A stretch of DNA of 61,828 nt from assembly GCA_903918755.1 (NCBI GenBank), contig CAIXFN010000087.1:1-61828 (forward strand). The letters run 5' to 3'. The translations under genes were made by a program, and so were the position numbers. Position 1 is the first letter of the stretch. Every line of letters starts with the position of its first letter. Positions 16,768 through 59,481 of this stretch are shown here, one piece after another. Below the pieces are notes generated by a model. The model searched no databases. It was not told the DNA's origin and saw nothing but the letters and a program-made list of their open reading frames with translations. Source of the DNA: an uncultured Pedosphaera sp. Lineage in GTDB: Bacteria; Verrucomicrobiota; Verrucomicrobiia; Limisphaerales; Pedosphaeraceae.

Positions 16768-16872
16768 CTGGAACCAGGCCGCGGGCAGGCGCCCCCCGCT
16801 CCGGCTAAATGTCTGCTTGCAGTGACCTTCGAATTGGGGCAGAATCGGGTGATCGCCAGCAAATATTGTGTC

Positions 16873-49355: not shown

Positions 49356-49452
49356 GCCCGGCGCGCGCGCCAAGATGTGATTGCCGGACCACCGCGGGAT
49401 CGTTAAGTTGGTCCGGACCGAACAGAAACAAATCAACCAACGATTTCATCCC

Positions 49453-50148
49453 ATGGCTGTTCCCACACTGCTGACCACCTCCGCGCTAAACGAAACCTAC
49501 GGCGGCGTCACCTACCACATCGAGGGCGAACTCGTGCCGGTGCTGCACTTGGAATTATCCCAGGTGGGTGTTTATTTTGAGCACCACATTTTGCTCTGGA
49601 AAGACCCGGCGGTGGATGTCCACTTGAAACCGATGCGGGGCGCGCTTAAACGGATGCTGGCCGGGATGCCCGTGTTCCTGACCGGAGCCAAGGGCCCGGG
49701 GCGCATTGCTTTCAGCCGCGACGGCGTCGGCCATGTGTTCGCGCTGCACTTGGAACCCGGCAGCGCGGTGGATGTGCGGGAGCACCAGTTTGTGGCCGCC
49801 ACCGACCCCGTGGAATTCACGTTCACCCGGGTGCGCGGCGCCGCCAACATGCTTCTGGGGGGCAGTGGTTTCTTCATCGACACTTTTTCCAGTCCCAACC
49901 AGGCCGGCATTCTGTGGTTGCACGGTTACGGCAATGTTTTTGAAGTCGATTTGAAACCGGGCGAGCAAATCGATATCGAACCGGGCGGCTGGATCTACAA
50001 GGAACAGACGGTGGAAATGGAGACCATCTTCCAACGCCTCCCGGTCGGCATTTTCGGCGGAGCGGGACAAATTTTTTGGAACCGTTTCACCGGTCCGGGC
50101 CGCATCGGGCTCCAATCCATGTATTTGCACGCGGAAACCGCGGAGTAA
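49453..50148 (+). CDS. AIM24-family protein
   Basis: 231 residues without signal peptide or membrane helix. The AIM24/TraL-like beta-prism fold is indicated by a series of short strand repeats: GPGRIAFSRDGVGHVFALHL, DVREHQFVAAT, and GAGQIFWNRFTGPGRIGLQS. Family members are mitochondrial biogenesis factors in yeast and uncharacterised in bacteria. The ATG at 49453 starts the conserved region. It is followed after 15 bases by the DUF4864 gene. Confidence 0.87.
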   Translation: MAVPTLLTTSALNETYGGVTYHIEGELVPVLHLELSQVGVYFEHHILLWKDPAVDVHLKPMRGALKRMLAGMPVFLTGAKGPGRIAFSRDGVGHVFALHLEPGSAVDVREHQFVAATDPVEFTFTRVRGAANMLLGGSGFFIDTFSSPNQAGILWLHGYGNVFEVDLKPGEQIDIEPGGWIYKEQTVEMETIFQRLPVGIFGGAGQIFWNRFTGPGRIGLQSMYLHAETAE

Positions 50149-50163
50149 ACCGCGCTTCGAGGA

Positions 50164-50727
50164 ATGATGCGGCCATCTTCCCAACCAATTCGCTGGCCAC
50201 TGGTGATCCTACTGGGGGCGACGCTGGGTTGTGTGTATGTCTGGCTCGGCCTGGCGCTGGGTCCGCCGCCCCACGCCAAGTCCCGCTCTCGTCGCACGGA
50301 AATTGTGCGGATTGTGCCCCAGGAACGCCGGAGACCACTTTTTCCCAGTGATGACGATGTCCGCGAAGAATTGACCGGTGTGGTAACCGCCCAATTGGCC
50401 GCCTTTCGCACGGACAATTATCCCGGCGCCTATCACCTCGCCGGGGCGGTCCTGCGGGACAGCCTCCCCCTGCCCGCGTTTGAAAAAATGGTGCGCACCA
50501 GTTACCCCGCCATCGCCCATTCCCGGTCTGCCTCCTTTGGCCCGGTGCTCGACAATGGCCAGGAGGCCGTGGTCAACGTCATCATCCTGAGCGAAAACCG
50601 GCAAATGATGCATTACCAATACCGGTTGCGGAATGAACGTTCCGGCTGGCGGATCGATGGGGTTGTCGAGTCAAAAACCAGCTCGCCCCTGGCTTCCCGG
50701 ACTGGACAAGCCGGGGCCACCGCCTAA
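50164..50727 (+). CDS. DUF4864 membrane-anchored protein
   Basis: 187 residues. The N-terminal hydrophobic anchor is at about 12-32, then a basic linker, then a DUF4864/NTF2-like domain (QLAAFRTDNYPGAYHLAG, FEKMVRTSYP, then RSGWRIDGV). The fold resembles NTF2-like ligand-binding proteins; the function is unknown. The globular part should be outside the cytoplasm. Confidence 0.75.
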   Translation: MMRPSSQPIRWPLVILLGATLGCVYVWLGLALGPPPHAKSRSRRTEIVRIVPQERRRPLFPSDDDVREELTGVVTAQLAAFRTDNYPGAYHLAGAVLRDSLPLPAFEKMVRTSYPAIAHSRSASFGPVLDNGQEAVVNVIILSENRQMMHYQYRLRNERSGWRIDGVVESKTSSPLASRTGQAGATA

Positions 50728-50768
50728 GAATCAGGCATGATTTGTTGTCCGGTATACCGCCCCTTCGC

Positions 50769-51428
50769 ATGACCCCCAAGCCCGCTACCGTCATCCCGCG
50801 CGTTCGTTCCCGCCCCGTCCCCGCCCGCTGGCAGGGGGAAGTGGAGCACGTGCTCTTTAGTGACCGCCAGATCGCCCGCCGGGTGCGGGAGTTGGCCACC
50901 GAAATTGAAGCCGAATTTCAAGACCGGGAACTGGTGATCGTGTCCCTCCTGAATGGCACCGTCATGTTCCTCGCCGACCTCATCCGCCACCTCTCCCTGC
51001 CGCTCCGCCTGGATTTCATGGGCGTGTCCAGTTACGGCGCCGGCACCGAATCCGGCGAACTGGTTTATACCAAGGAGTTGCGCCTGGATGTGCGCGGCCG
51101 CGATGTCCTCCTCGTGGATGACATCCTCGACACCGGCCGGACTCTCCACAAGGTGCTGGCCAAATTGCGCGCCCTCAAGCCCCGCCGGATCAAAACCTGC
51201 GTGTTGCTGGACAAAGTCGCCCGGCGGGTGGAAAAGGTACAGGCCGATTTCGTGGGCTTTCCGATACCTGACCATTTCGTGGTGGGTTACGGCCTGGACT
51301 ATGCCGAGCGCTACCGCAACCTTCCCTTTGTCGGCGTGTTGCACCCCCGGATGTATCAGACCGGCGCCGACGCTGCCGTCATCGCGGGCCGTCCAGCGAA
51401 AAAGCCAGGCACAAGGAAATCCGCATGA
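50769..51428 (+). CDS. hpt: Hypoxanthine phosphoribosyltransferase
   Basis: 219 residues; purine salvage from hypoxanthine or guanine plus PRPP to the nucleotide. The PRPP loop is VLLVDDILDTGRTL; further family features are LLNGTVMFLADL, SSYGAGTESG (flexible loop) and VVGYGLDYAERYRNLP near the C-terminus. An extra 20 to 25 residues precede the conserved start, and the C-terminus ends in a basic tail. ATG at 50769 is chosen over 50742. Its stop overlaps the moaD start (ATGA). Confidence 0.92.
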   Translation: MTPKPATVIPRVRSRPVPARWQGEVEHVLFSDRQIARRVRELATEIEAEFQDRELVIVSLLNGTVMFLADLIRHLSLPLRLDFMGVSSYGAGTESGELVYTKELRLDVRGRDVLLVDDILDTGRTLHKVLAKLRALKPRRIKTCVLLDKVARRVEKVQADFVGFPIPDHFVVGYGLDYAERYRNLPFVGVLHPRMYQTGADAAVIAGRPAKKPGTRKSA

Positions 51429-52191: not shown

Positions 52192-52219
52192 TTGACAAGG
52201 TCACTTTGTAATGCAAAGC
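52192..52219 (+). promoter_or_regulatory. Promoter and operator-like palindrome, site 1
   Basis: TTGACA at 52192-52197 is a perfect -35. The palindrome ACTTTG-TAATG-CAAAG at 52203-52218 lies in the spacer/-10 region, ten bases before the membrane protein ATG. A site with the same arms lies before ispH. Likely operator of the winged-helix regulator encoded downstream. Confidence 0.6.
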
Positions 52220-52228
52220 TTGACCCGC

Positions 52229-52849
52229 ATGAACACGAACTGGGCCGCCGAGAACATCCAGACCATCCGGACGCTGATGGAACGCGCCACGATTTATCGC
52301 CGCGCGCTGGCCCCAGTGATGACCTTTACCGGCGTGGTCGGAATCGCCGCGGCGTACGCGGGGGAACGGATGAATATCCATGCCAGCCATGACTTCGCCC
52401 GTTACTGGATGGTGATCAGTGCCATTGCCGTGGCTGGCGTCGGCGTGCTGGTGCGCCGCCAGGCCCTAAAGGATGGCGAAGCCTTTTGGTCCCCGCCCAC
52501 CCGCCGGGTTACCCAGGCGCTGCTCCCCGCCTTTTCCGGTGGCTTGCTGGCCGGAGTGGTATTTTGGTGGAAAGTCGATGGCGTGGAATGGACCCCGTTT
52601 CTGCCGCCCATCTGGGTGCTCCTCTATGGCTGCGGCTTGCATGCCGCGGGTTTTTTCATGCCGCGCGGCATTCGCTTGCTGGCGTGGATGTTTGTGCTCG
52701 GAAGTGCCGGATCGTTGCTGACCATCCTCGGCTTTGACCTCCTCTCACCCCGCTTGAGCCATCCCCTGATGGGCGGATTTTTTGGCGTGTTGCAACTGGC
52801 CTACGGCCTCTATCTGTACCTGACGGAGCAGCGGAAACGCGTCGTGTGA
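52229..52849 (+). CDS. Membrane partner of winged-helix regulator
   Basis: 206 residues with about five predicted transmembrane helices, starting at an ATG ten bases after the operator-like palindrome. I do not recognise a catalytic motif. Similar-sized membrane proteins often sit next to HTH_34-type regulators. Its stop overlaps the GTG start of the regulator (GTGA), so both are one translational unit. It may modulate the regulator or be its target; both are inference. Confidence 0.7.
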   Translation: MNTNWAAENIQTIRTLMERATIYRRALAPVMTFTGVVGIAAAYAGERMNIHASHDFARYWMVISAIAVAGVGVLVRRQALKDGEAFWSPPTRRVTQALLPAFSGGLLAGVVFWWKVDGVEWTPFLPPIWVLLYGCGLHAAGFFMPRGIRLLAWMFVLGSAGSLLTILGFDLLSPRLSHPLMGGFFGVLQLAYGLYLYLTEQRKRVV

Positions 52850-53154
52850 ACCCGGAACCATTTCTCAACCTGGATCGGGTGATCCATGAAAAGGGGCGCC
52901 TGTTCATCATGTCCCTGCTGGCGGCGGCCCCGGAGCTCTCGTTCACGGAATTGCGCGACACCCTGGCCATGACCGATGGCAATTTGACCACGCACATCCG
53001 CACGCTCCAGGAAGCGGGCTATGTCTCGGTGACCAAGTCCTTCCAGAACAACCGCTCCCACACGAGCTGCGCGCTGACCAGCGCCGGGCGCAAGGCCTTT
53101 GCCGCCCACATCAATTTTCTCGAGGAAATAGTCCGGCAAACCAAACCGCAGTAA
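52846..53154 (+). CDS. Winged-helix transcriptional regulator (HTH_34 type)
   Basis: 102 residues, GTG start overlapping the previous stop. The family pattern is clear: LDRVIHEKGRLFIMSLL, then LSFTELRDTLAMTDGNLTTH (recognition helix), LQEAGYVSV, then LTSAGRKAF. Such regulators are small MarR/ArsR-like dimers, usually without a visible ligand domain. Two copies of one palindrome flank the regulator gene, before its partner and before ispH, and are the likely binding sites. Confidence 0.85.
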   Translation: MNPEPFLNLDRVIHEKGRLFIMSLLAAAPELSFTELRDTLAMTDGNLTTHIRTLQEAGYVSVTKSFQNNRSHTSCALTSAGRKAFAAHINFLEEIVRQTKPQ

Positions 53155-53189
53155 GTCTCATTGAACAAAATCACCGACCCATGGTCTTA

Positions 53190-53206
53190 ACTTTGTAACG
53201 CAAAGT
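53190..53206 (+). promoter_or_regulatory. Operator-like palindrome, site 2
   Basis: ACTTTG-TAACG-CAAAGT is a perfect palindrome around a five-base centre, with the same arms and spacing as the site at 52203. It ends ten bases before the ispH ATG, the same offset as site 1. Confidence 0.6.
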
Positions 53207-53216
53207 GTTTACCACT

Positions 53217-54113
53217 ATGAAAATTCTCCGGGCAGAACATTTGGGCATGTGTTTTGGCGTCCGCGACGCCATCACCCTGGCGTTGCGCCAGCAATCACCC
53301 GCCACGCCCCTCACCATCCTGGGCGATCTCGTGCACAACGAAACCGTTCTGGCGGAGTTGCGCTCCCGCGGCATCCGGATTGAGCGGGACTTGCACAACG
53401 TGCGCACGCCCACGGTCATGATCACCGCCCACGGCACTTCGGAGCGAACCCTCGAGCGCGTCAAAGCCCACGGATTGAGCGTGTTGGAGGCCACGTGCCC
53501 GCTCGTCACCGTCGCGCACCGGGCGGTGGCGGACCTCGTGAAACAGGGCTTTCACCCGGTCATCGTCGGCCAGCGCGATCATGTCGAAGTGCGCGGGATG
53601 ACGGACGATTTGCGCGAATTCGATGTCGTGTTGACGGAGGCTGACGTCCGACAATTGACCGAACGCCCGCGCTTCGGCGTGGCGGCCCAGACCACCCAAC
53701 CGGTGGAACGCGTGCGCCGGCTGCTGGCGGTGCTGCGCGAGCGCTTTCCCCATTCGGAAATCCGGTTTGCCGACACGGTCTGCCGCCCCACGAAACAACG
53801 GCAGGAAGCCGCCGTGGAACTGGCCCGCCAATGCGACGTTGTGGTGGTGATCGGCGGCGCGCACAGCAACAACACCCATGAACTGGTGGCGACCTGTCGC
53901 CGCCACTGCGCCCGGGTTCACCATGTGCAATCCGCCGACGGCCTGCGGGAGGAGTGGTTTGTCGAGGCTGAAACGGTGGGCATCACCGCGGGAACCTCCA
54001 CCCCGGACAGCCTGATCGACGCCGTGGAGAATTGGTTGCAGGCCCTGGCCACGCCCCAGGCGGAGTCCCGCGGCGAAAGCGTCGCGGAACTCGCTCACGC
54101 CCATGTCGACTGA
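53217..54113 (+). CDS. ispH: 4-hydroxy-3-methylbut-2-enyl diphosphate reductase
   Basis: The last step of the MEP pathway: makes IPP and DMAPP. 298 residues. The three cysteines that hold the iron-sulfur cluster are Cys12 (GMCFGV), Cys94 (ATCPLV) and Cys189 (TVCRPT). The likely substrate and acid residues are His40, His122 and Glu124, plus GGAHSNNTHEL and AGTSTPD. The active-site words are somewhat diverged from the E. coli form (HVEV for HPEV). The ATG at 53217 is chosen over a GTG at 53205 that lies inside the operator. Confidence 0.9.
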   Translation: MKILRAEHLGMCFGVRDAITLALRQQSPATPLTILGDLVHNETVLAELRSRGIRIERDLHNVRTPTVMITAHGTSERTLERVKAHGLSVLEATCPLVTVAHRAVADLVKQGFHPVIVGQRDHVEVRGMTDDLREFDVVLTEADVRQLTERPRFGVAAQTTQPVERVRRLLAVLRERFPHSEIRFADTVCRPTKQRQEAAVELARQCDVVVVIGGAHSNNTHELVATCRRHCARVHHVQSADGLREEWFVEAETVGITAGTSTPDSLIDAVENWLQALATPQAESRGESVAELAHAHVD

Positions 54114-54126
54114 AGGAGCCACCCAC

Positions 54127-54834
54127 ATGAACAATCGCCAACGCTGGTTCATCGTCGCCATTTTCGCCGTCGCCATGGCTTGGCTGGAATCCGCCGTGGT
54201 CTTTTATCTACGCACGTGGTGCAACCGCATCGATCCCTATCAGGCCGAACCACTGCCCAACATCGCCGGACTCGGCGGAGTGGAGATCATCCGCGAGGCG
54301 GCCACTCTCATCATGCTTTGGCTCGTGGGCATGCTGGCCGGCAATACGCCACGGAGCCGCTGGGGCTACAGCGCCGTGGCCTTCGGCGTCTGGGACATTT
54401 TCTATTACGTCTTCCTCCGGCTCATCTGCCCGTGGCCCAAGAGCCTCCTGGATTGGGATATCCTCTTCCTCCTGCCCCTGCCGTGGTGGGGTCCCGTGCT
54501 CGCCCCGGTCTTGATCGCCGTATTGATGATTCTCTGGGGCACGCTGGCCAGCCAAGGGGAGCCGTTCCTGCACCCGTTCCGGGTGGAATGGCGGGCGTGG
54601 TTGCTCAATTTCGCCGGGACGGCCGTGGCCCTTTATGTCTTCATGGCCGACGCCTTGCAGGCGGCCAAAGGCGGGCCCACCGCCATCCGGCAGGTCCTCC
54701 CGCCGCCCCATGGCTTTAACTGGCCTTTGTTTACAGTGGCCCTGGCCTTGATGGCGGCCCCGGTTGTCCACACCGCCCGCCAACTGCGCGCCCGGGCAGG
54801 CGCGCCGGAATTCCGCACCGCCAAATCGACATGA
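54127..54834 (+). CDS. Membrane protein of ispH cluster (1)
   Basis: 235 residues with about six predicted transmembrane helices. It has a good ribosome site (AAGGAG) before the ATG at 54127; a longer start at 54103 overlaps ispH. I do not recognise the family. The helix ending WLESAVVFYLRTW and the loop GVWDIFYYVFLRL are notable aromatic, conserved-looking parts. Its stop overlaps the next gene (ATGA). Confidence 0.7.
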   Translation: MNNRQRWFIVAIFAVAMAWLESAVVFYLRTWCNRIDPYQAEPLPNIAGLGGVEIIREAATLIMLWLVGMLAGNTPRSRWGYSAVAFGVWDIFYYVFLRLICPWPKSLLDWDILFLLPLPWWGPVLAPVLIAVLMILWGTLASQGEPFLHPFRVEWRAWLLNFAGTAVALYVFMADALQAAKGGPTAIRQVLPPPHGFNWPLFTVALALMAAPVVHTARQLRARAGAPEFRTAKST

Positions 54835-55553
54835 AGCCGGCCGCACCCACCTTTGATCCCGGGCAGGTCAGCGCCCTCCTGCGGGGCGAGCCGGGCCTGC
54901 TCCAGGACTGGATCCGCCATTGGTCCGCGGGCCGCATGTTTCTCTACGGCGCCTACATCCTCCTCGGCGCGGGAACCTTCGGTGCCGCCATCGGCGCCTG
55001 GCGCGGTCCGGAGCAGGCGGTTTACACCGCGCTCAAATTCCCGCTGGTCATCCTGCTCACCTCCCTGGGCAACGCGCTGCTCAACGGCATGCTCGCGCCC
55101 CTCCTGGGATTGAATCTCGGCTTCCGGCAATCGTTGCTCGTCATCTTCATGAGCTTCACCATCGCCGCCGCCATCCTGGGATCGTTCAGTCCCCTGCTGC
55201 TGTTCATCGTCTGGAACACGCCGCCCCCGAATTTATCCGCCCACAGTGTTTCATTGGGTTATGATTTCATGCAACTGGCCACGGTGGGATTCATCGCCTT
55301 CGCCGGTGTCGTGGCGAACGTGCGCCTGGTGCCGCTCCTCCAGACCCTGGGCGGCAGCCGCGCGATCGCGTACAAAGTTTTGCTCGCCTGGCTCGCGGGC
55401 AACCTGTTCCTCGGCAGTCAAATCTCCTGGATCCTGCGACCCTTCATCGGGAATCCCCGGACCCCGATTGAATTTCTCTCCCAGCACCCCTGGGAAGGCA
55501 GCTTCTACGAATCGGTATTTCACGCCCTCCAACATTTACTGACCCAACCATAA
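54831..55553 (+). CDS. Membrane protein of ispH cluster (2), Yip1-like
   Basis: 240 residues with five to six predicted helices. A hydrophilic N-terminus carries GEPGLLQDWIRHW, then GPEQAVYTALKFPLVILLTS starts the membrane part. The pattern resembles Yip1/DUF-type five-helix proteins, though I cannot confirm the family. The next gene appears to be a distant paralog by its similar layout and the A-PLK-type start of the first helices. Confidence 0.65.
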   Translation: MKPAAPTFDPGQVSALLRGEPGLLQDWIRHWSAGRMFLYGAYILLGAGTFGAAIGAWRGPEQAVYTALKFPLVILLTSLGNALLNGMLAPLLGLNLGFRQSLLVIFMSFTIAAAILGSFSPLLLFIVWNTPPPNLSAHSVSLGYDFMQLATVGFIAFAGVVANVRLVPLLQTLGGSRAIAYKVLLAWLAGNLFLGSQISWILRPFIGNPRTPIEFLSQHPWEGSFYESVFHALQHLLTQP

Positions 55554-55558
55554 CGACT

Positions 55559-56365
55559 ATGAGCGACTACAATTCCCCACCGCCCGGCCAACTGCCCGGC
55601 TATACTCCCAATCCTACTCCTGCCCAAGTTCCGCCCCCCATCATCCCGGGACCAACTCCGCGACCCGTTCCGGACGCCAGCCTGGGCTCCCGTCCCGAAG
55701 ACCGCGCCCCCATCCTAGGTTGGGCCGGCATCATCGACGCCCTCCTGCGCGAGCCGCGCCGCGTCCATTATCAATTGCGGCAGGCCAACGCGGGCCGGTT
55801 GATCGCCGCCCTCGTGTTCATTGCCGCAGCCTGCGCCCTGGTTTACGGCCTCGTGGTGGGCACGTTCTCCGGCGGCACGCAACTCTGGGCCGCGCCCCTT
55901 AAAGTGGCCGCGGGCCTGCTCATTTCCGGCGCCATCTGCCTGCCGAGCCTCTACATCTTTTCGTGCCTCAGCGGGTCCAGCGGACGCCTGGTCGAGGTGG
56001 GCGGATTGACCGCGGGGTTGCTGGCGCTGCTGACCTTGCTCCTCGGCGGCTTCGCGCCGGTGGCCTGGGTCTTCTCGCAATCCACCCAATCGGTCGCCGC
56101 CATGGGCGCCTTGCACCTGGCCTTTTGGGCCGTCGCCGCCGGGTTTGGTCTGCGCTTTCTGCGCGCGGGCTTTCTCCGAACGAACGCCCGTTCCACCGCC
56201 GGCCTCAACGTCTGGATCGTGGTCTTCCTGCTGGTCTCCTTGCAGATGACCACGGCGCTCCGCCCCATTCTTGGCACCGCCGACACCCTGCTGCCCAAAT
56301 CTTCCGAGAAACAGTTCTTCCTGAGCCATTGGTGGCAATGCCTGGATGCCAGCAACCACAACTAA
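55559..56365 (+). CDS. Membrane protein of ispH cluster (3), Yip1-like
   Basis: 268 residues. The N-terminal 50 residues are Pro-rich and disordered, then IIDALLREPRRVHYQLRQAN leads into five to six helices, with GTQLWAAPLKVAAGLLISG resembling the start of the preceding protein's membrane part. It lies five bases after the previous gene and six before the next. Probably a partner of the preceding protein. Confidence 0.65.
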   Translation: MSDYNSPPPGQLPGYTPNPTPAQVPPPIIPGPTPRPVPDASLGSRPEDRAPILGWAGIIDALLREPRRVHYQLRQANAGRLIAALVFIAAACALVYGLVVGTFSGGTQLWAAPLKVAAGLLISGAICLPSLYIFSCLSGSSGRLVEVGGLTAGLLALLTLLLGGFAPVAWVFSQSTQSVAAMGALHLAFWAVAAGFGLRFLRAGFLRTNARSTAGLNVWIVVFLLVSLQMTTALRPILGTADTLLPKSSEKQFFLSHWWQCLDASNHN

Positions 56366-56371
56366 ACCTTT

Positions 56372-57058
56372 ATGAGCCATTCCGAACCAAGAACACACAA
56401 CCCTCCCGCCTTGCCGCTTCTCCTGCTGCTGGTGGCCTCCGTCATGGGCGCGGCGCAAGTCGGCTTGCGGATCGCCTGGTCGCACAATTGGAACTATTTG
56501 TTCCTCATCTGGAACCTGGTCCTCGCCTGGTTGCCGGTCTATTTCGCGCTGCACGTCCGGCAGCGACACCAGGCCGGCGCGAGCGATGGGAGCCTGTGCC
56601 TGCCGGCGGGCCTTTGGCTTCTGTTCCTCCCCAACGCGCCGTATATCTTCACCGACCTGGTCCATCTGCAAAATTGGTTCGCGGGCCATTACTGGGTGGA
56701 CTTCAGCCTGATCCTGCAATTCGGTCTGACCGGCTTCCTGCTGGGCTTCATTTCCCTCTACCTGGTGCACGCCGTTGTCCGCGACCGATTCGGCGCGTTG
56801 GCGGGCTGGCTGTTCGTGCTGGTCTCGGCAGGACTCTGCGGCATCGGCGTCGGTTTGGGCCGGTTCGGTCGCTGGAATTCCTGGGACCTCGTCGTCCACC
56901 CCTTTGGCCTGGTGCATGACATTGGCCGGTGGGCAGTCCATCCGCTCATGCACGCCAAGACCCTCGTCTTCGCCACGCTGTTCGCCAGTTTCCTCTTCGT
57001 GAGCTACCTGATGCTGTATGGCCTCACCCTGTTGCAAAACGAATCCCCGCGCCGCTAA
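56372..57058 (+). CDS. DUF1361 membrane protein
   Basis: 228 residues with about six helices. DUF1361 signature words are visible: FLIWNLVLAWLP, LWLLFLPNAPYIFTDLVHL and GLGRFGRWNSWD. The family has no known function; the conserved Asn-Ala-Pro-Tyr and Arg-Trp-Asn-Ser-Trp-Asp loops suggest an active or binding site at the membrane surface. The stop is adjacent to the ATG of the next gene. Confidence 0.85.
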   Translation: MSHSEPRTHNPPALPLLLLLVASVMGAAQVGLRIAWSHNWNYLFLIWNLVLAWLPVYFALHVRQRHQAGASDGSLCLPAGLWLLFLPNAPYIFTDLVHLQNWFAGHYWVDFSLILQFGLTGFLLGFISLYLVHAVVRDRFGALAGWLFVLVSAGLCGIGVGLGRFGRWNSWDLVVHPFGLVHDIGRWAVHPLMHAKTLVFATLFASFLFVSYLMLYGLTLLQNESPRR

Positions 57059-58249
57059 ATGAAAAAGCCTGGCCAATCTCGAATTGGGCGGAGTCTTTCG
57101 GCCTTGGCCGTGGCCACGGCGATCTGGATTCCGAGCCTGCACTGGTTCTTCACAGCCAAGGAGGGGGACTTTCACCAACCATCCGGGATTTCCACCAAGG
57201 CCAGGCAATTGGCGTCGCGCCACCTGGCGCTATGGAGCGAACCGGAGGCGAGACAGCAGGAATTGAATCGGATGCGCGCGAGCAACGCGGAGTGGGATTT
57301 TATGGGGCGCACATTTCTGGTCTGGTCGCTAGCCGACATGAGTTTGCGAAACCCGGAGGGAAAGTCGCAATATGTGGCGGTGATGGATCAGATTATCGTC
57401 GAAACCTTGCGCCTGGAAAAAGAACATGGGATGTATTTCTTCCTGATGCCGTATGCGCGGGCGGGCAATTTTGTGATGCAGCCGCCCCGCAGCCAGTTTC
57501 TGGACAGTGAAATTGCCCTGATGCTCGCTTCACGCCGCTGGGTGGCCGAAAAGGCTGAATACATTCCCTTGCTTCGAGAGCGGATCGCCTTCATGGGGGA
57601 GCGGATGGCACAGGGAGCCGTCTTATCGACCGAAAGTTATCCGAACGAATGCTGGATGTTTGACAACGCGGCGGCCTTGGCGGCATTTCGCTTGAGCGAT
57701 CGTTTGGACGGCGGTGACCATTCCGATTTCATCCACCGCTGGATCCAAACGGCCCGGGCCAAATTAACGGATCCCGTCACCGGGATTTTGATCTCCAGTT
57801 ACACCGTGGATGGCCGGGCGCTCGATGGACCGGAGGGTTCCTCCATCTGGATGGTTACGCATTTTCTGCGGCTGGCGGACGGATCCTTTGCGCGAGACCA
57901 ATATCAACGGGCGCGGAAAGAACTGGCCAGAGGCCTGGCTGGATTTGCCTGGTCACGCGAATGGCCGGCTTCCTGGCAAGGGCCAACGGACATTGATTCC
58001 GGCCCCGTTATTCCCGTCCTGGGAATTAGCGCCGGAGCCAGTGGCATGGCCTTGATCGGGGCCAGCTCGGCGGGCGATGAAGATTATCTGCAGCGACTCG
58101 TCACAACGCTTGATTTCGCCGCCTTTCCGGCGCGGAAGAACGGGCGTCTGCGGTACTGTGCGAGCAATGCCGTGGGCGACGCGGCGCTGCTCTACGCCAG
58201 CGTGCTGGGACCCGTTTGGAATGAAGCTATCACCCATCACCAACCATGA
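57059..58249 (+). CDS. LDI-like (alpha/alpha)6 barrel protein, membrane anchored
   Basis: 396 residues. One N-terminal hydrophobic helix at about 12-32, then an all-helical barrel. Layout and words such as DPVTGILISSYTVDG, SREWPASWQGPTDIDSGPVI and GRLRYC resemble the linalool dehydratase/isomerase (Ldi) and six-hairpin fold group, and the length equals that of Ldi. This assignment is from memory of family patterns; catalytic residues are not confirmed. Its position in an operon with ispH makes an isoprenoid-related substrate thinkable. An alternative is a glycosidase-like barrel. Confidence 0.5.
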   Translation: MKKPGQSRIGRSLSALAVATAIWIPSLHWFFTAKEGDFHQPSGISTKARQLASRHLALWSEPEARQQELNRMRASNAEWDFMGRTFLVWSLADMSLRNPEGKSQYVAVMDQIIVETLRLEKEHGMYFFLMPYARAGNFVMQPPRSQFLDSEIALMLASRRWVAEKAEYIPLLRERIAFMGERMAQGAVLSTESYPNECWMFDNAAALAAFRLSDRLDGGDHSDFIHRWIQTARAKLTDPVTGILISSYTVDGRALDGPEGSSIWMVTHFLRLADGSFARDQYQRARKELARGLAGFAWSREWPASWQGPTDIDSGPVIPVLGISAGASGMALIGASSAGDEDYLQRLVTTLDFAAFPARKNGRLRYCASNAVGDAALLYASVLGPVWNEAITHHQP

Positions 58250-58617
58250 TTGCCAAAACTCAATGCGCGAAACCACAACCGTGGGGAGGGGGGTTCCTTT
58301 CATCGCGCTACCTTGGGCTACGGGCGGTCGCGCTCGTTTTGCTCTTCGGCGCCGCCCACCTGGCGGGATTGCGGGAATCCACCACCTTTCTCACGGGCAC
58401 CGCCGCTGCTTCGGGGGCGAGCCTCCAATCTTCCGCGTATGCCGGCGGCCTCTACATCTTGCTTTACCTGGGATTTGTGGTTCTTGCGCCGATTCTAGCC
58501 CTCGCGGCGGCTCTCCTTTATTTCTGGGAGCGGCGGGATAGGCGTGTGAGCTTGCCCTCCGCTACCAAAGCTCAACCCACCGCAACCGAACCCCCAATCA
58601 GCCATGAACCCCTCTGA
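58246..58617 (+). CDS. Small membrane protein of ispH cluster
   Basis: 123 residues with two predicted helices (about 25-40 and 66-92), a Gly/Ala-rich periplasmic loop between them and a charged tail. It overlaps the LDI-like gene (ATGA) and the next gene by 14 bases, so it is in one translational chain. No family recognised. Confidence 0.6.
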   Translation: MIAKTQCAKPQPWGGGFLSSRYLGLRAVALVLLFGAAHLAGLRESTTFLTGTAAASGASLQSSAYAGGLYILLYLGFVVLAPILALAAALLYFWERRDRRVSLPSATKAQPTATEPPISHEPL

Positions 58618-59143
58618 CGCCGTCCTCCGCCGCCGCATCAAATGGTTGACCTGGTTCTTCATCGTGGGCTTGTTCCTGAGCGGCGCCACCGCCATTCCGC
58701 TGGAATCGGAGCTGAACCTCCTCGCGCGCCTGGTCGGGGCTGACATCGGTTCCTCCGGAGTCCCACCCGCAGCGAGCGGACTGGCTCATTGGATTCTGAT
58801 GGTCCGTGACGCCCTGCACACTACGAACACCCGCTTCCCGTTCATGGCCTACGGCACCGACTGGCTGGCCTTTGGCCACTTCGTCATCGCCATCGCCTTC
58901 ATTGGCGCCTTGCGCGATCCCGTGCGGAACATCTGGTTATTCACCTTCGGCATGATTGCCTGCGTCCTGCTGATCCCCTACGCCTTCGTAATGGGTGCGG
59001 TACGCGGCATTCCCCTGGAATGGGGGTTGATCGACTGTTCCTTCGGCATCGGCGGTATCGTGCCCGTGCGGCTCTGCCGCAAGTGGGCCCGCGAACTGGA
59101 ACTCCGCCAGACCACGAAACATTCAAGCGATGACGATCGATAG
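58604..59143 (+). CDS. Conserved membrane protein of ispH cluster
   Basis: 179 residues with about four helices. Words RDPVRNIWLFTFGMIAC and RGIPLEWGLIDCSFGI look like a widely conserved uncharacterised family of Bacteroidetes and Verrucomicrobiota (from memory). The N-terminus overlaps the previous gene by 14 bases. The function is unknown. Confidence 0.7.
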   Translation: MNPSDAVLRRRIKWLTWFFIVGLFLSGATAIPLESELNLLARLVGADIGSSGVPPAASGLAHWILMVRDALHTTNTRFPFMAYGTDWLAFGHFVIAIAFIGALRDPVRNIWLFTFGMIACVLLIPYAFVMGAVRGIPLEWGLIDCSFGIGGIVPVRLCRKWARELELRQTTKHSSDDDR

Positions 59144-59241
59144 GGACGGGACAAACAAGCACCAGCGGCGCGGCGCGCACCACCAAACGAATCCTCCCGA
59201 CCGTCATTGCCAACACTCCCAGCGGTCACTACACTGCCGCC

Positions 59242-59481
59242 ATGAGCGAACCCACCATCGCGCGCAAAGCGCCCTACGTCCTCCCCACACTGCCGGGCTC
59301 CTATTACTGGTGCAGTTGCGGCAAATCGAAAGCCCAACCCTTCTGCGACGGCTCCCACGCCGGCTCCGGCTTTAACCCCGTGAAAGTGGACATCACCGAA
59401 GCCAAAACCGTGGCTTGGTGCGGCTGCAAACACTCCAAGAATGGCGCCTTCTGCGACGGCAGCCACGCCAAACTGCCGTAA
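59242..59481 (+). CDS. Twin CDGSH iron-sulfur protein
   Basis: 79 residues with two CDGSH-type clusters: CSCGKSKAQPFCDGSH and CGCKHSKNGAFCDGSH, each with the three Cys and one His that bind a 2Fe-2S cluster. Small bacterial CDGSH proteins handle electrons or iron-sulfur clusters in the cytoplasm. It lies 98 bases after the membrane protein run and may have its own promoter. Since IspH needs an Fe-S cluster and electrons, a link is possible but unproven. Confidence 0.88.
   Translation: MSEPTIARKAPYVLPTLPGSYYWCSCGKSKAQPFCDGSHAGSGFNPVKVDITEAKTVAWCGCKHSKNGAFCDGSHAKLP

Follow-up and report, generated by a model that had tools for sequence, protein, structure and literature searches.

Organization of the locus

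The window, meaning the whole 61,828-nucleotide stretch of uncultured Pedosphaera sp. DNA that was analysed, carries ten tightly packed genes on the forward strand between positions 52229 and 59143, in the order M1–HTH_34–ispH–M2–YipA–YipB–DUF1361–LDI-like–M3–M4. The successive gaps from M1 to M4 are −4, 50, −11, −4, 5, 6, 0, −4 and −14 bp. Order and gaps confirm the close-packed grouping of ispH with membrane-protein genes and a regulator described in the first-pass annotation, with the count corrected from nine genes to ten. The first gene, M1 (52229–52849), encodes a membrane protein and putative regulator partner; it is followed by a gene for an HTH_34 winged-helix regulator (52846–53154; PF13601, E = 8.7e-26, 90.3 bits against a cut-off of 27) and by ispH (53217–54113). 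Downstream lie genes for the membrane proteins M2 (54103–54834), YipA (54831–55553), YipB (55559–56365) and DUF1361 (56372–57058; PF07099, E = 1e-39), an LDI-fold protein (57059–58249), the small membrane protein M3 (58246–58617) and the membrane protein M4 (58604–59143). The starts ATG 52229 (M1) and ATG 53217 (ispH) are the conserved ones; those originally listed (52192 or 52211 for M1, 53205 for ispH) lie before or inside the palindromes described below and were corrected. None of M1, M2, YipA, YipB, M3 and M4 exceeded the Pfam or NCBIfam cut-offs (YipA/YipB, like moaD/moaE and hpt, are labels coined in this analysis), and the predicted model of M2 (pLDDT 81.0) had no PDB match at E ≤ 0.001.

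The same layout recurs beyond this genus and family within the order. Fifteen genomes have this LDI-like family; in five of them (G023, G041, G047, G111 and G141) the LDI-like gene stands apart from M1–HTH_34–ispH, and in five more the contig ends ahead of it. A CDGSH gene lies 98 bp beyond M4. Its product, which the first-pass annotation placed after the nine genes, gave no tblastn match in the other loci searched (L031–L150, L161–L172) and was rejected as a module member.

A second, short-type ispH

The ispH product matches PF02401 (E = 1.5e-77, 261 bits) and TIGR00216 (250.2 bits against a cut-off of 187.85). It is a second copy: the window genome also has a long-type ispH, which the first-pass annotation had suggested looking for, and at least two LytB matches are present in 101 of 146 genomes of the order, among the matches listed. 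Both the second ispH and the gene order are established by sequence. Residues C16, C98, C193, H44, H126 and E128 are invariant across 22 aligned sequences; we take the first three to be the cluster cysteines and the others to be the active-site His/Glu residues. The SSN motif of Escherichia coli IspH appears as SNN in the 21 short-type sequences of this alignment. The protein shares its LytB domain, three cluster cysteines and other invariant residues with the short-type IspH of Aquifex and E. coli, whereas here it is a second genomic copy with its own regulator and palindrome. An HTH_34 gene lies directly upstream of short-type ispH in 91 of 98 cases in the order among the matches listed, a set from which weakly scoring copies may be missing and in which short and long types were assigned by matched length.

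A palindrome at the M1 and ispH promoters

A 17-letter inverted repeat, ACTTTG-N5-CAAAGT, is present at both the M1 and ispH promoters. Before M1, a promoter-like −35 element, TTGACA (52192–52197, forward strand), is followed 11 bp on by candidate operator 1, ACTTTGTAATGCAAAGC (52203–52219), with one mismatch; before ispH, the promoter-like element TTGAAC (53161–53166, forward strand) is followed 29 bp on by candidate operator 2, ACTTTGTAACGCAAAGT (53190–53206), which is exact. With up to two mismatches within 200 bp of the start, the palindrome was found before 30 of 30 M1 and 32 of 34 ispH genes, counts that are partly circular because the motif was derived from these regions. By the same criteria it was found before 0 of 41 HTH_34, 0 of 17 YipA, 0 of 15 DUF1361, 0 of 15 M3 and 0 of 20 M4 genes, and in 0–1.3% of shuffled regions. 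These counts used conserved starts and left out an M1 region of less than 100 bp, together with regions whose final 60 bp duplicated those of an earlier region. TTGAC lies 11–12 bp ahead of the palindrome in 19 of 30 M1 regions, and a promoter-like element lies 30–31 bp ahead in 21 of 32 ispH regions and 29 bp ahead in two.

The exact palindrome occurs in 85 of 104 genomes with an HTH_34 gene against 8 of 42 without one (Fisher test ignoring kinship; the 104 leave out G054, a weak match with E = 2.6e-9). Two genomes, G103 and G018, have the palindrome at ispH though their HTH_34 gene is located elsewhere; G088 has neither; and G052, which is 82% complete, has the palindrome at ispH with no HTH_34 gene found. 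In the window genome, sites with up to one mismatch number 11, equal to a reversed-pattern control, and exact sites number three against one for the control; the number of sites in the window alone is not significant (3 against 1.27 expected, with 19 of 100 shuffles reaching 3).

Scattered sites in relatives

In one relative, G141, five of the six exact sites precede M2, a BchE-type gene, ispH–xseB–dxs (dxs standing two genes behind ispH), long-LDI–LDI and CreD, and M2 has its own candidate operator where it stands apart. B12-radical-SAM and di-iron proteins, as well as CreD and DUF4153, also appear in the module or at its sites in relatives; the window's own genome lacks CreD and DUF4153. Sites away from the main locus were examined in 42 loci, and in 26 of these the site heads no module-family gene. 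M2 is fused to a di-iron protein in two loci (L042 and L101). Among the di-iron proteins, that of L229 has no convincing PDB match (best E = 0.97) and none in Pfam or NCBIfam, and that of L162 has sub-cut-off matches only (AurF, 27.2 against 29.6 bits). The radical-SAM protein of L219 has one PDB sequence match, an apramycin biosynthesis oxidoreductase. Palindrome conservation, co-occurrence with HTH_34 and these scattered targets are likewise read directly from the DNA, and the palindrome-marked genes look like a regulon.

An LDI-fold protein lacking the LDI catalytic cysteines

The protein encoded at 57059–58249 exceeds the Pfam Ldi cut-off (29.6 against 26.1 bits), and its predicted structure matches linalool dehydratase-isomerase (LDI) with a Foldseek E-value of 2.8e-11 and a Z score of 34.2 (r.m.s.d. 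3.3, 336 aligned), the next-ranked fold reaching Z 24. Alpha/alpha-barrel glycoside hydrolases (GH76 and others) are alike in the general barrel and match less well (E = 3.7e-5; Z about 22). LDI is closer than any glycosidase, and a glycosidase role is disfavoured.

PMC6600392 describes four essential cysteines in LDI and inactive Cys-to-Ser forms. In two alignments, the catalytic Cys170 and Cys179 of LDI (171 and 180 in PDB entry titles) correspond to Ser193 and Asp202 of the window protein, whose only cysteines are C198 and C367; the capping disulphide cysteines 48 and 101 of LDI are not present either. H129 and D39 are presumably also catalytic residues of LDI. Because neither catalytic cysteine is present, linalool-type chemistry is not supported; of the terpene-type chemistry entertained in the first-pass annotation, the LDI kind was rejected for this protein. 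The LDI fold is common to Castellaniella LDI, Thauera linalool isomerase and the window protein, whereas here Ser193 and Asp202 replace the cysteines and the gene context is not terpene breakdown. A membrane-anchored arrangement is described for linalool isomerase in PMC4791888. From its model and sequence, the window protein may be membrane-anchored, although a Kyte–Doolittle scan did not flag its N-terminal helix as transmembrane. M3 lies within 400 bp downstream of the LDI gene in 73 of 79 loci in a cross-phylum search; the phyla are named there from record titles, and several MAG contigs, L083 and L089 among them, may have been placed in the wrong bin.

Plasmid-borne M1-like and HTH_34 units outside the phylum

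Each of the eight plasmid records examined encodes a hypothetical protein of 135–217 amino acids directly before the HTH_34 gene. The palindrome before this M1-like gene is exact in Thermomicrobium and has two mismatches in one record and three in two others; the remaining four have no close palindrome there. These units share the two-gene arrangement, whereas most of their neighbours, among them an ABC transporter and cyo genes, are unrelated: in seven of the eight, they are not cis-prenyltransferase or LDI genes. In the eighth record, an Aureimonas plasmid, the unit is followed by a cis-prenyltransferase gene whose start carries the palindrome with one mismatch, and by an LDI-domain gene in which both catalytic cysteines are retained. 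The isoprenoid connection is thus seen again in a second phylum.

A proposed link between isoprenoid supply and the envelope

We propose, with a probability of roughly 55%, that isoprenoid or polyprenyl supply is controlled jointly with envelope proteins, in a regulon whose core includes the M1/HTH_34 pair. M1 and the HTH_34 protein would form a self-regulated pair, with the latter binding the palindrome at its own promoter and at that of ispH and the downstream membrane genes. Conserved palindromes make the local winged-helix control of ispH proposed in the first-pass annotation likely; as to the repression implied there, the HTH_34 protein is most likely a repressor rather than an activator, because the palindrome sits within or just after promoter elements. 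M1 would sense membrane state, the putative signal, and repression would be relieved. Targets would be short ispH, M2, YipA/B, DUF1361, LDI-like–M3 and M4, to which relatives would add CreD, DUF4153, B12-radical-SAM and di-iron proteins. A dedicated second IspH, presumably active as an HMBPP reductase, would boost the supply of isoprenoid precursors during a change in the inner membrane or envelope, the link probably lying at the level of the polyprenyl (undecaprenyl-type) carrier lipid.

We infer this polyprenyl link from the one Aureimonas case, the one dxs case and the precedent of SigM. According to PMC11081497, Bacillus subtilis SigM controls ispD and ispF, is activated on depletion of IspH or UppS and, with YhdLK, serves undecaprenyl phosphate homeostasis. 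In both systems, a single regulator that has a membrane partner would govern isoprenoid and envelope genes; SigM, however, belongs to a sigma/anti-sigma factor system with other targets, whereas here a winged-helix protein and a palindrome are involved and the sensed lipid is putative. The earlier idea of a module joining isoprenoid supply to membrane change gains support for its isoprenoid theme from dxs and the Aureimonas genes, and loses LDI-type terpene chemistry. The polyprenyl explanation does not account for the B12-radical-SAM and di-iron partners. Judged by titles and the beginnings of abstracts among the matches listed, no description of this regulon was found in the literature.

A more speculative extension, which we consider doubtful, is that a membrane-sensing circuit in at least two phyla, using one palindrome, controls polyprenyl-lipid homeostasis, with an inducible IspH or cis-prenyltransferase supplying the chain and LDI-fold membrane proteins working on long polyprenols at their allylic head. 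If true, long polyprenols would be a new substrate class for the LDI fold.

An alternative is a lipid or terpenoid biosynthesis regulon, in which IspH (and Dxs in one genome) feeds precursor and LDI-fold, B12-radical-SAM and di-iron enzymes build or oxidize an unusual isoprenoid membrane lipid. B12-radical-SAM genes (two above the NCBI BchE cut-off) and di-iron genes do carry the palindrome or sit in the module, and the M2–di-iron fusions and the LDI fold point the same way; yet inspection of the window module found no prenyltransferase, cyclase or lipid synthase, small membrane proteins make up most of its genes, the LDI catalytic cysteines are missing, and CreD and DUF4153 indicate the envelope, which makes this reading unlikely. 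Less probable again is an oxygen or iron response, with the second IspH as an Fe–S enzyme form for other redox conditions, alongside alternative proteins that are oxygen-independent (BchE-type) or oxygen-dependent (di-iron): one regulon would combine Fe–S, radical-SAM and di-iron proteins, but most targets are membrane proteins without recognized metal motifs, CDGSH is not conserved as a neighbour, and the Aureimonas target is a cis-prenyltransferase. A true LDI in monoterpene breakdown or synthesis is very improbable: the Pfam score and the fold favour it, against two replaced catalytic residues, two cysteines in place of four essential ones, and the anabolic role of IspH. Finally, a chance cluster of membrane genes after a housekeeping ispH, which would fit the differing downstream gene content among genomes, is scarcely credible given HTH_34 upstream of 91 of 98 short-type ispH genes among the matches listed, the conserved triad, the palindrome, the scattered targets and the existence of a second ispH.

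On the preferred reading of joint isoprenoid and envelope control, a regulator pair and palindrome controlling a spare ispH together with membrane proteins suggest that lipid-precursor supply is tied to envelope change. The reason for two ispH copies, which are common in the order, is made testable by a defined palindrome and target list, and the spare copy is tied to a membrane-protein programme. M2, YipA/B, DUF1361, M4 and LDI–M3 form a shortlist of unknown membrane families that probably serve one common process, and the LDI fold turns up in a context that is not monoterpene breakdown. Should the polyprenyl explanation be correct, Gram-negative phyla would have, in this system, a counterpart to control by SigM.

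Operon organization and the second ispH

The ten genes of the block (52229–59143, forward strand) encode, in order, M1, HTH_34, IspH, M2, YipA, YipB, a DUF1361 protein, a linalool dehydratase-isomerase (LDI)-like protein, M3 and M4, and from M1 through M4 they overlap or are spaced by at most 50 bp. Pfam and NCBIfam identify the winged-helix regulator HTH_34, IspH, the DUF1361 protein and the Ldi-domain protein; M1, M2, YipA, YipB, M3 and M4 fall below every cut-off of both libraries. By hydropathy, these six and the DUF1361 protein are membrane proteins, and a helix at the N terminus of the LDI-like protein (residues 4–31) may be an anchor. The starts first listed for M1 and ispH, on or before palindromic sequences, were too early; the conserved proteins begin at 52229 and 53217. 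The CDGSH gene that follows is not counted as part of the conserved module; no other locus searched contains one. Upstream, at 49381–51428, lie AIM24-family, DUF4864 and phosphoribosyltransferase genes, the last of which was not seen adjoining the module in relatives' loci.

A further ispH, for which the first-pass annotation had proposed a search, is present elsewhere in the genome. The assembly (7.19 Mb, 118 contigs) carries two LytB genes: the short copy in the window and a long-type copy on contig C17 (about 1,020 bp matched versus about 815 bp). Among the matches listed, 139 of 146 genomes of the order, this one included, have a LytB gene, with two copies in 97, three in four and one in 38. 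Short-type E-values occur in only four of the 38 single-copy genomes listed (G029, G083, G097 and G119), which indicates that the long type is the usual single-copy ispH. The window gene is an extra copy, and in alignment its product retains the cluster cysteines along with further invariant residues.

The LDI-like protein and M3

A profile search of PDB sequences with the LDI-like protein returned LDI only (E = 7e-10). For its structural model (pLDDT 82.9), Foldseek placed LDI first (E = 2.8e-11) and GH76 next (E = 3.7e-5), and structural Z scores were 34.2 for LDI and 24.0 for the next match, cellobiose epimerase. The barrel has the LDI fold and matches LDI better than any glycosidase, so the outcome that would have counted against the initial proposal was not observed. 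In the window protein, however, Ser193 and Asp202 stand at the positions of LDI's catalytic cysteines, and LDI with Cys-to-Ser changes is reported to be inactive (PMC6600392). In three relatives (L073, L098 and L108), the second catalytic position is Cys. M3 lies within 400 bp downstream in 73 of the 79 relatives with sufficient 3′ DNA, which, judged by record titles, come from several phyla.

The genome that contains the window encodes, at another place, a longer, 520-residue LDI-family paralogue (G000:C24:65609–66208; L049:9157–10719). In two relatives, the open frame of the LDI-like domain also encodes a large extension at the N terminus (L073:8840–11194, 784 residues; L093:8846–11158, 770 residues), and in L122 a separate 378-residue gene product with a similar start is encoded directly 5′ of LDI.

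Conservation of the layout

Of the 146 genomes, 15 encode the LDI-like protein with a score of at least 438 bits, and 22 do so at E ≤ 1e-5. Five of these 15 (this genome, G002, G097, G057 and G033) carry the triad M1–HTH_34–ispH and the membrane genes as a single run that extends to LDI; in another five (G006, G143, G076, G105 and G100), the contig ends too early to show this; and in the last five (G023, G041, G047, G111 and G141), LDI stands apart from the triad. Four further runs with the triad were found in named MAGs (L077, L079, L088 and L101). The conservation on which the first-pass annotation had made its proposal depend is borne out. M1–HTH_34 precedes the short ispH in 17 of 20 fetched loci and, by coordinates, a co-oriented HTH_34 gene lies no more than 2 kb upstream in 91 of 98 genomes among the short-type genes listed. 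The genes 3′ of ispH vary, being M2, YipA–YipB, DUF1361, CreD, radical-SAM, di-iron or xseB–dxs; DUF4153 is found in the LDI run of G105, and M2 and the di-iron protein are joined in one 493-residue open frame in L042:181–1662 and L101:6861–8342.

A further family of the class also carries the triad (L162–L165), followed in two loci (L162 and L163) by the di-iron gene. At greater distance (L073, L093, L166, L167 and L172), M1-like–HTH_34 units precede YipB–YipA, CreD, LDI-family or radical-SAM genes, with no ispH in these stretches. L098 is mixed, combining the terminal part of a short ispH with a BchE-like gene, an M1-like–HTH_34 unit, two LDI-family genes and M3. In L169:5372–7310 (G360), the protein encoded after M1–HTH_34 and its palindrome is IspH-like but very divergent (24% identity).

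A palindrome at the M1 and ispH promoters

The upstream DNA of both M1 and ispH contains the inverted repeat ACTTTG-N5-CAAAGT, a candidate operator, with one mismatch at 52203–52219 and exact at 53190–53206. In non-redundant loci, allowing two mismatches within 200 bp of the start, it precedes M1 in 30/30 and ispH in 32/34 cases. The corresponding counts are 0/41 for HTH_34, 1/16 for M2, 0/17 for YipA, 1/10 for YipB, 0/15 for DUF1361, 3/62 for LDI, 0/15 for M3 and 0/20 for M4, and shuffled controls gave 0–1.3%. The single M2 site (L103) and two of the LDI sites (L085 and L111) belong to genes outside the main locus; the third LDI site (L138) has two mismatches. As for the ispH exceptions, L063 comes from a genome without an HTH_34 gene (G088), and L084 (G097) has an exact site at 16830–16846 of its contig, ahead of a small inserted gene. 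G103 and G018 carry the palindrome at ispH without an adjoining HTH_34 and encode HTH_34 elsewhere; a contrary case is G052 (82% complete), in which the palindrome is at ispH, yet HTH_34 was not found. Of 30 M1 regions, 19 have a TTGAC that begins 11–12 bp 5′ of the palindrome, and of 32 ispH regions, 21 have a TTGAAC that begins 30–31 bp 5′ of it; these spacings suit a repressor without proving one. In the distant units, the M1-like gene is preceded by an exact palindrome in L073, L093 and L172 and by one with a single mismatch in L167 and L168; L098 has none at up to two mismatches, and L166 none at up to one.

Across the order, the 104 genomes with HTH_34 contain 149 exact sites, versus 50 for a reversed-pattern control, and the 42 genomes without it contain 9 versus 17. 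At least one exact site occurs in 85/104 and 8/42 genomes, respectively (Fisher P = 1.6e-12, kinship ignored). The present genome has three exact sites (control, one): before ispH, at a gene whose product, a small membrane protein, resembles one that relatives encode between ispH and M2 (E = 2e-7), and at a gene for another hydrophobic protein. At up to one mismatch, its 11 sites equal the control, and the window's three sites at up to two mismatches are not unusual.

We fetched 42 loci (22 + 20), a part of all those with sites outside the M1–ispH locus. In 13 of them, the start of a module-family gene lies no more than 160 bp from the site (L184, L219, L229, L235, L258, L260–L263, L265, L266, L268 and L269). 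The L235 site was known before the fetch, and L260 and L263 were found through similarity to L220, itself a palindrome-site locus outside M1–ispH. BchE-type genes were counted as module family because they adjoin LDI in L231 and L098. The gene headed by the L220 site is of BchE type, and module genes lie near the sites in L228 and L231. The other 26 sites head no module-family gene: some precede other membrane genes (a DUF2975 gene in L218; a shared one in L226 and L254), L256 is a contig end, and others may be chance. The six exact sites in G141 precede M2, a BchE-type gene, ispH–xseB–dxs, long-LDI–LDI, CreD and a gene for an unknown 295-residue protein. The position of the sites, their co-occurrence with HTH_34 and the gene content are shown by these data and look like those of a regulon. 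Two B12-radical-SAM proteins exceed the NCBI BchE cut-off of 481.35 (L220:2803–4392, 521.5 bits; L231:1990–3717, 494.7 bits).

Plasmid-borne units

In another phylum, plasmid pAU20b of Aureimonas sp. AU20 (L272, 2385–6294) carries an M1-like gene, HTH_34 (46% identical), a cis-prenyltransferase gene whose start bears the palindrome (one mismatch), an LDI-domain gene and, 112 bp beyond it, a gene annotated as diacylglycerol kinase family. The 642-residue Ldi-domain protein (233 bits) keeps both catalytic cysteines, and the run is a possible polyprenol operon. An HTH_34 match occurs in 39 plasmid records, this one included; eight records were viewed, drawn from these and from another list, and in all seven besides Aureimonas the neighbours of HTH_34 are different. 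Ahead of the M1-like gene, Thermomicrobium has an exact site, whereas the site is off by two in one plasmid, by three in two (Aureimonas included) and by at least five in four. The same two-gene arrangement, a hypothetical protein and an HTH_34-like regulator, occurs in an archaeon (Natronosalvus halobius plasmid, L280, 1876–2782).

Proposed regulation

We infer DNA binding, the sign of control, the signal and the chemistry as follows. The HTH_34 protein would be an autorepressor with M1 as its membrane partner; a membrane signal would open the M1 and ispH promoters, and more IspH would be made together with the set of membrane proteins. A precedent for linking isoprenoids and the envelope is SigM of Bacillus subtilis (PMC11081497). 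The putative targets include isoprenoid genes in both phyla, and CreD and DUF4153 are among the companions; together these point to polyprenyl supply and the envelope.
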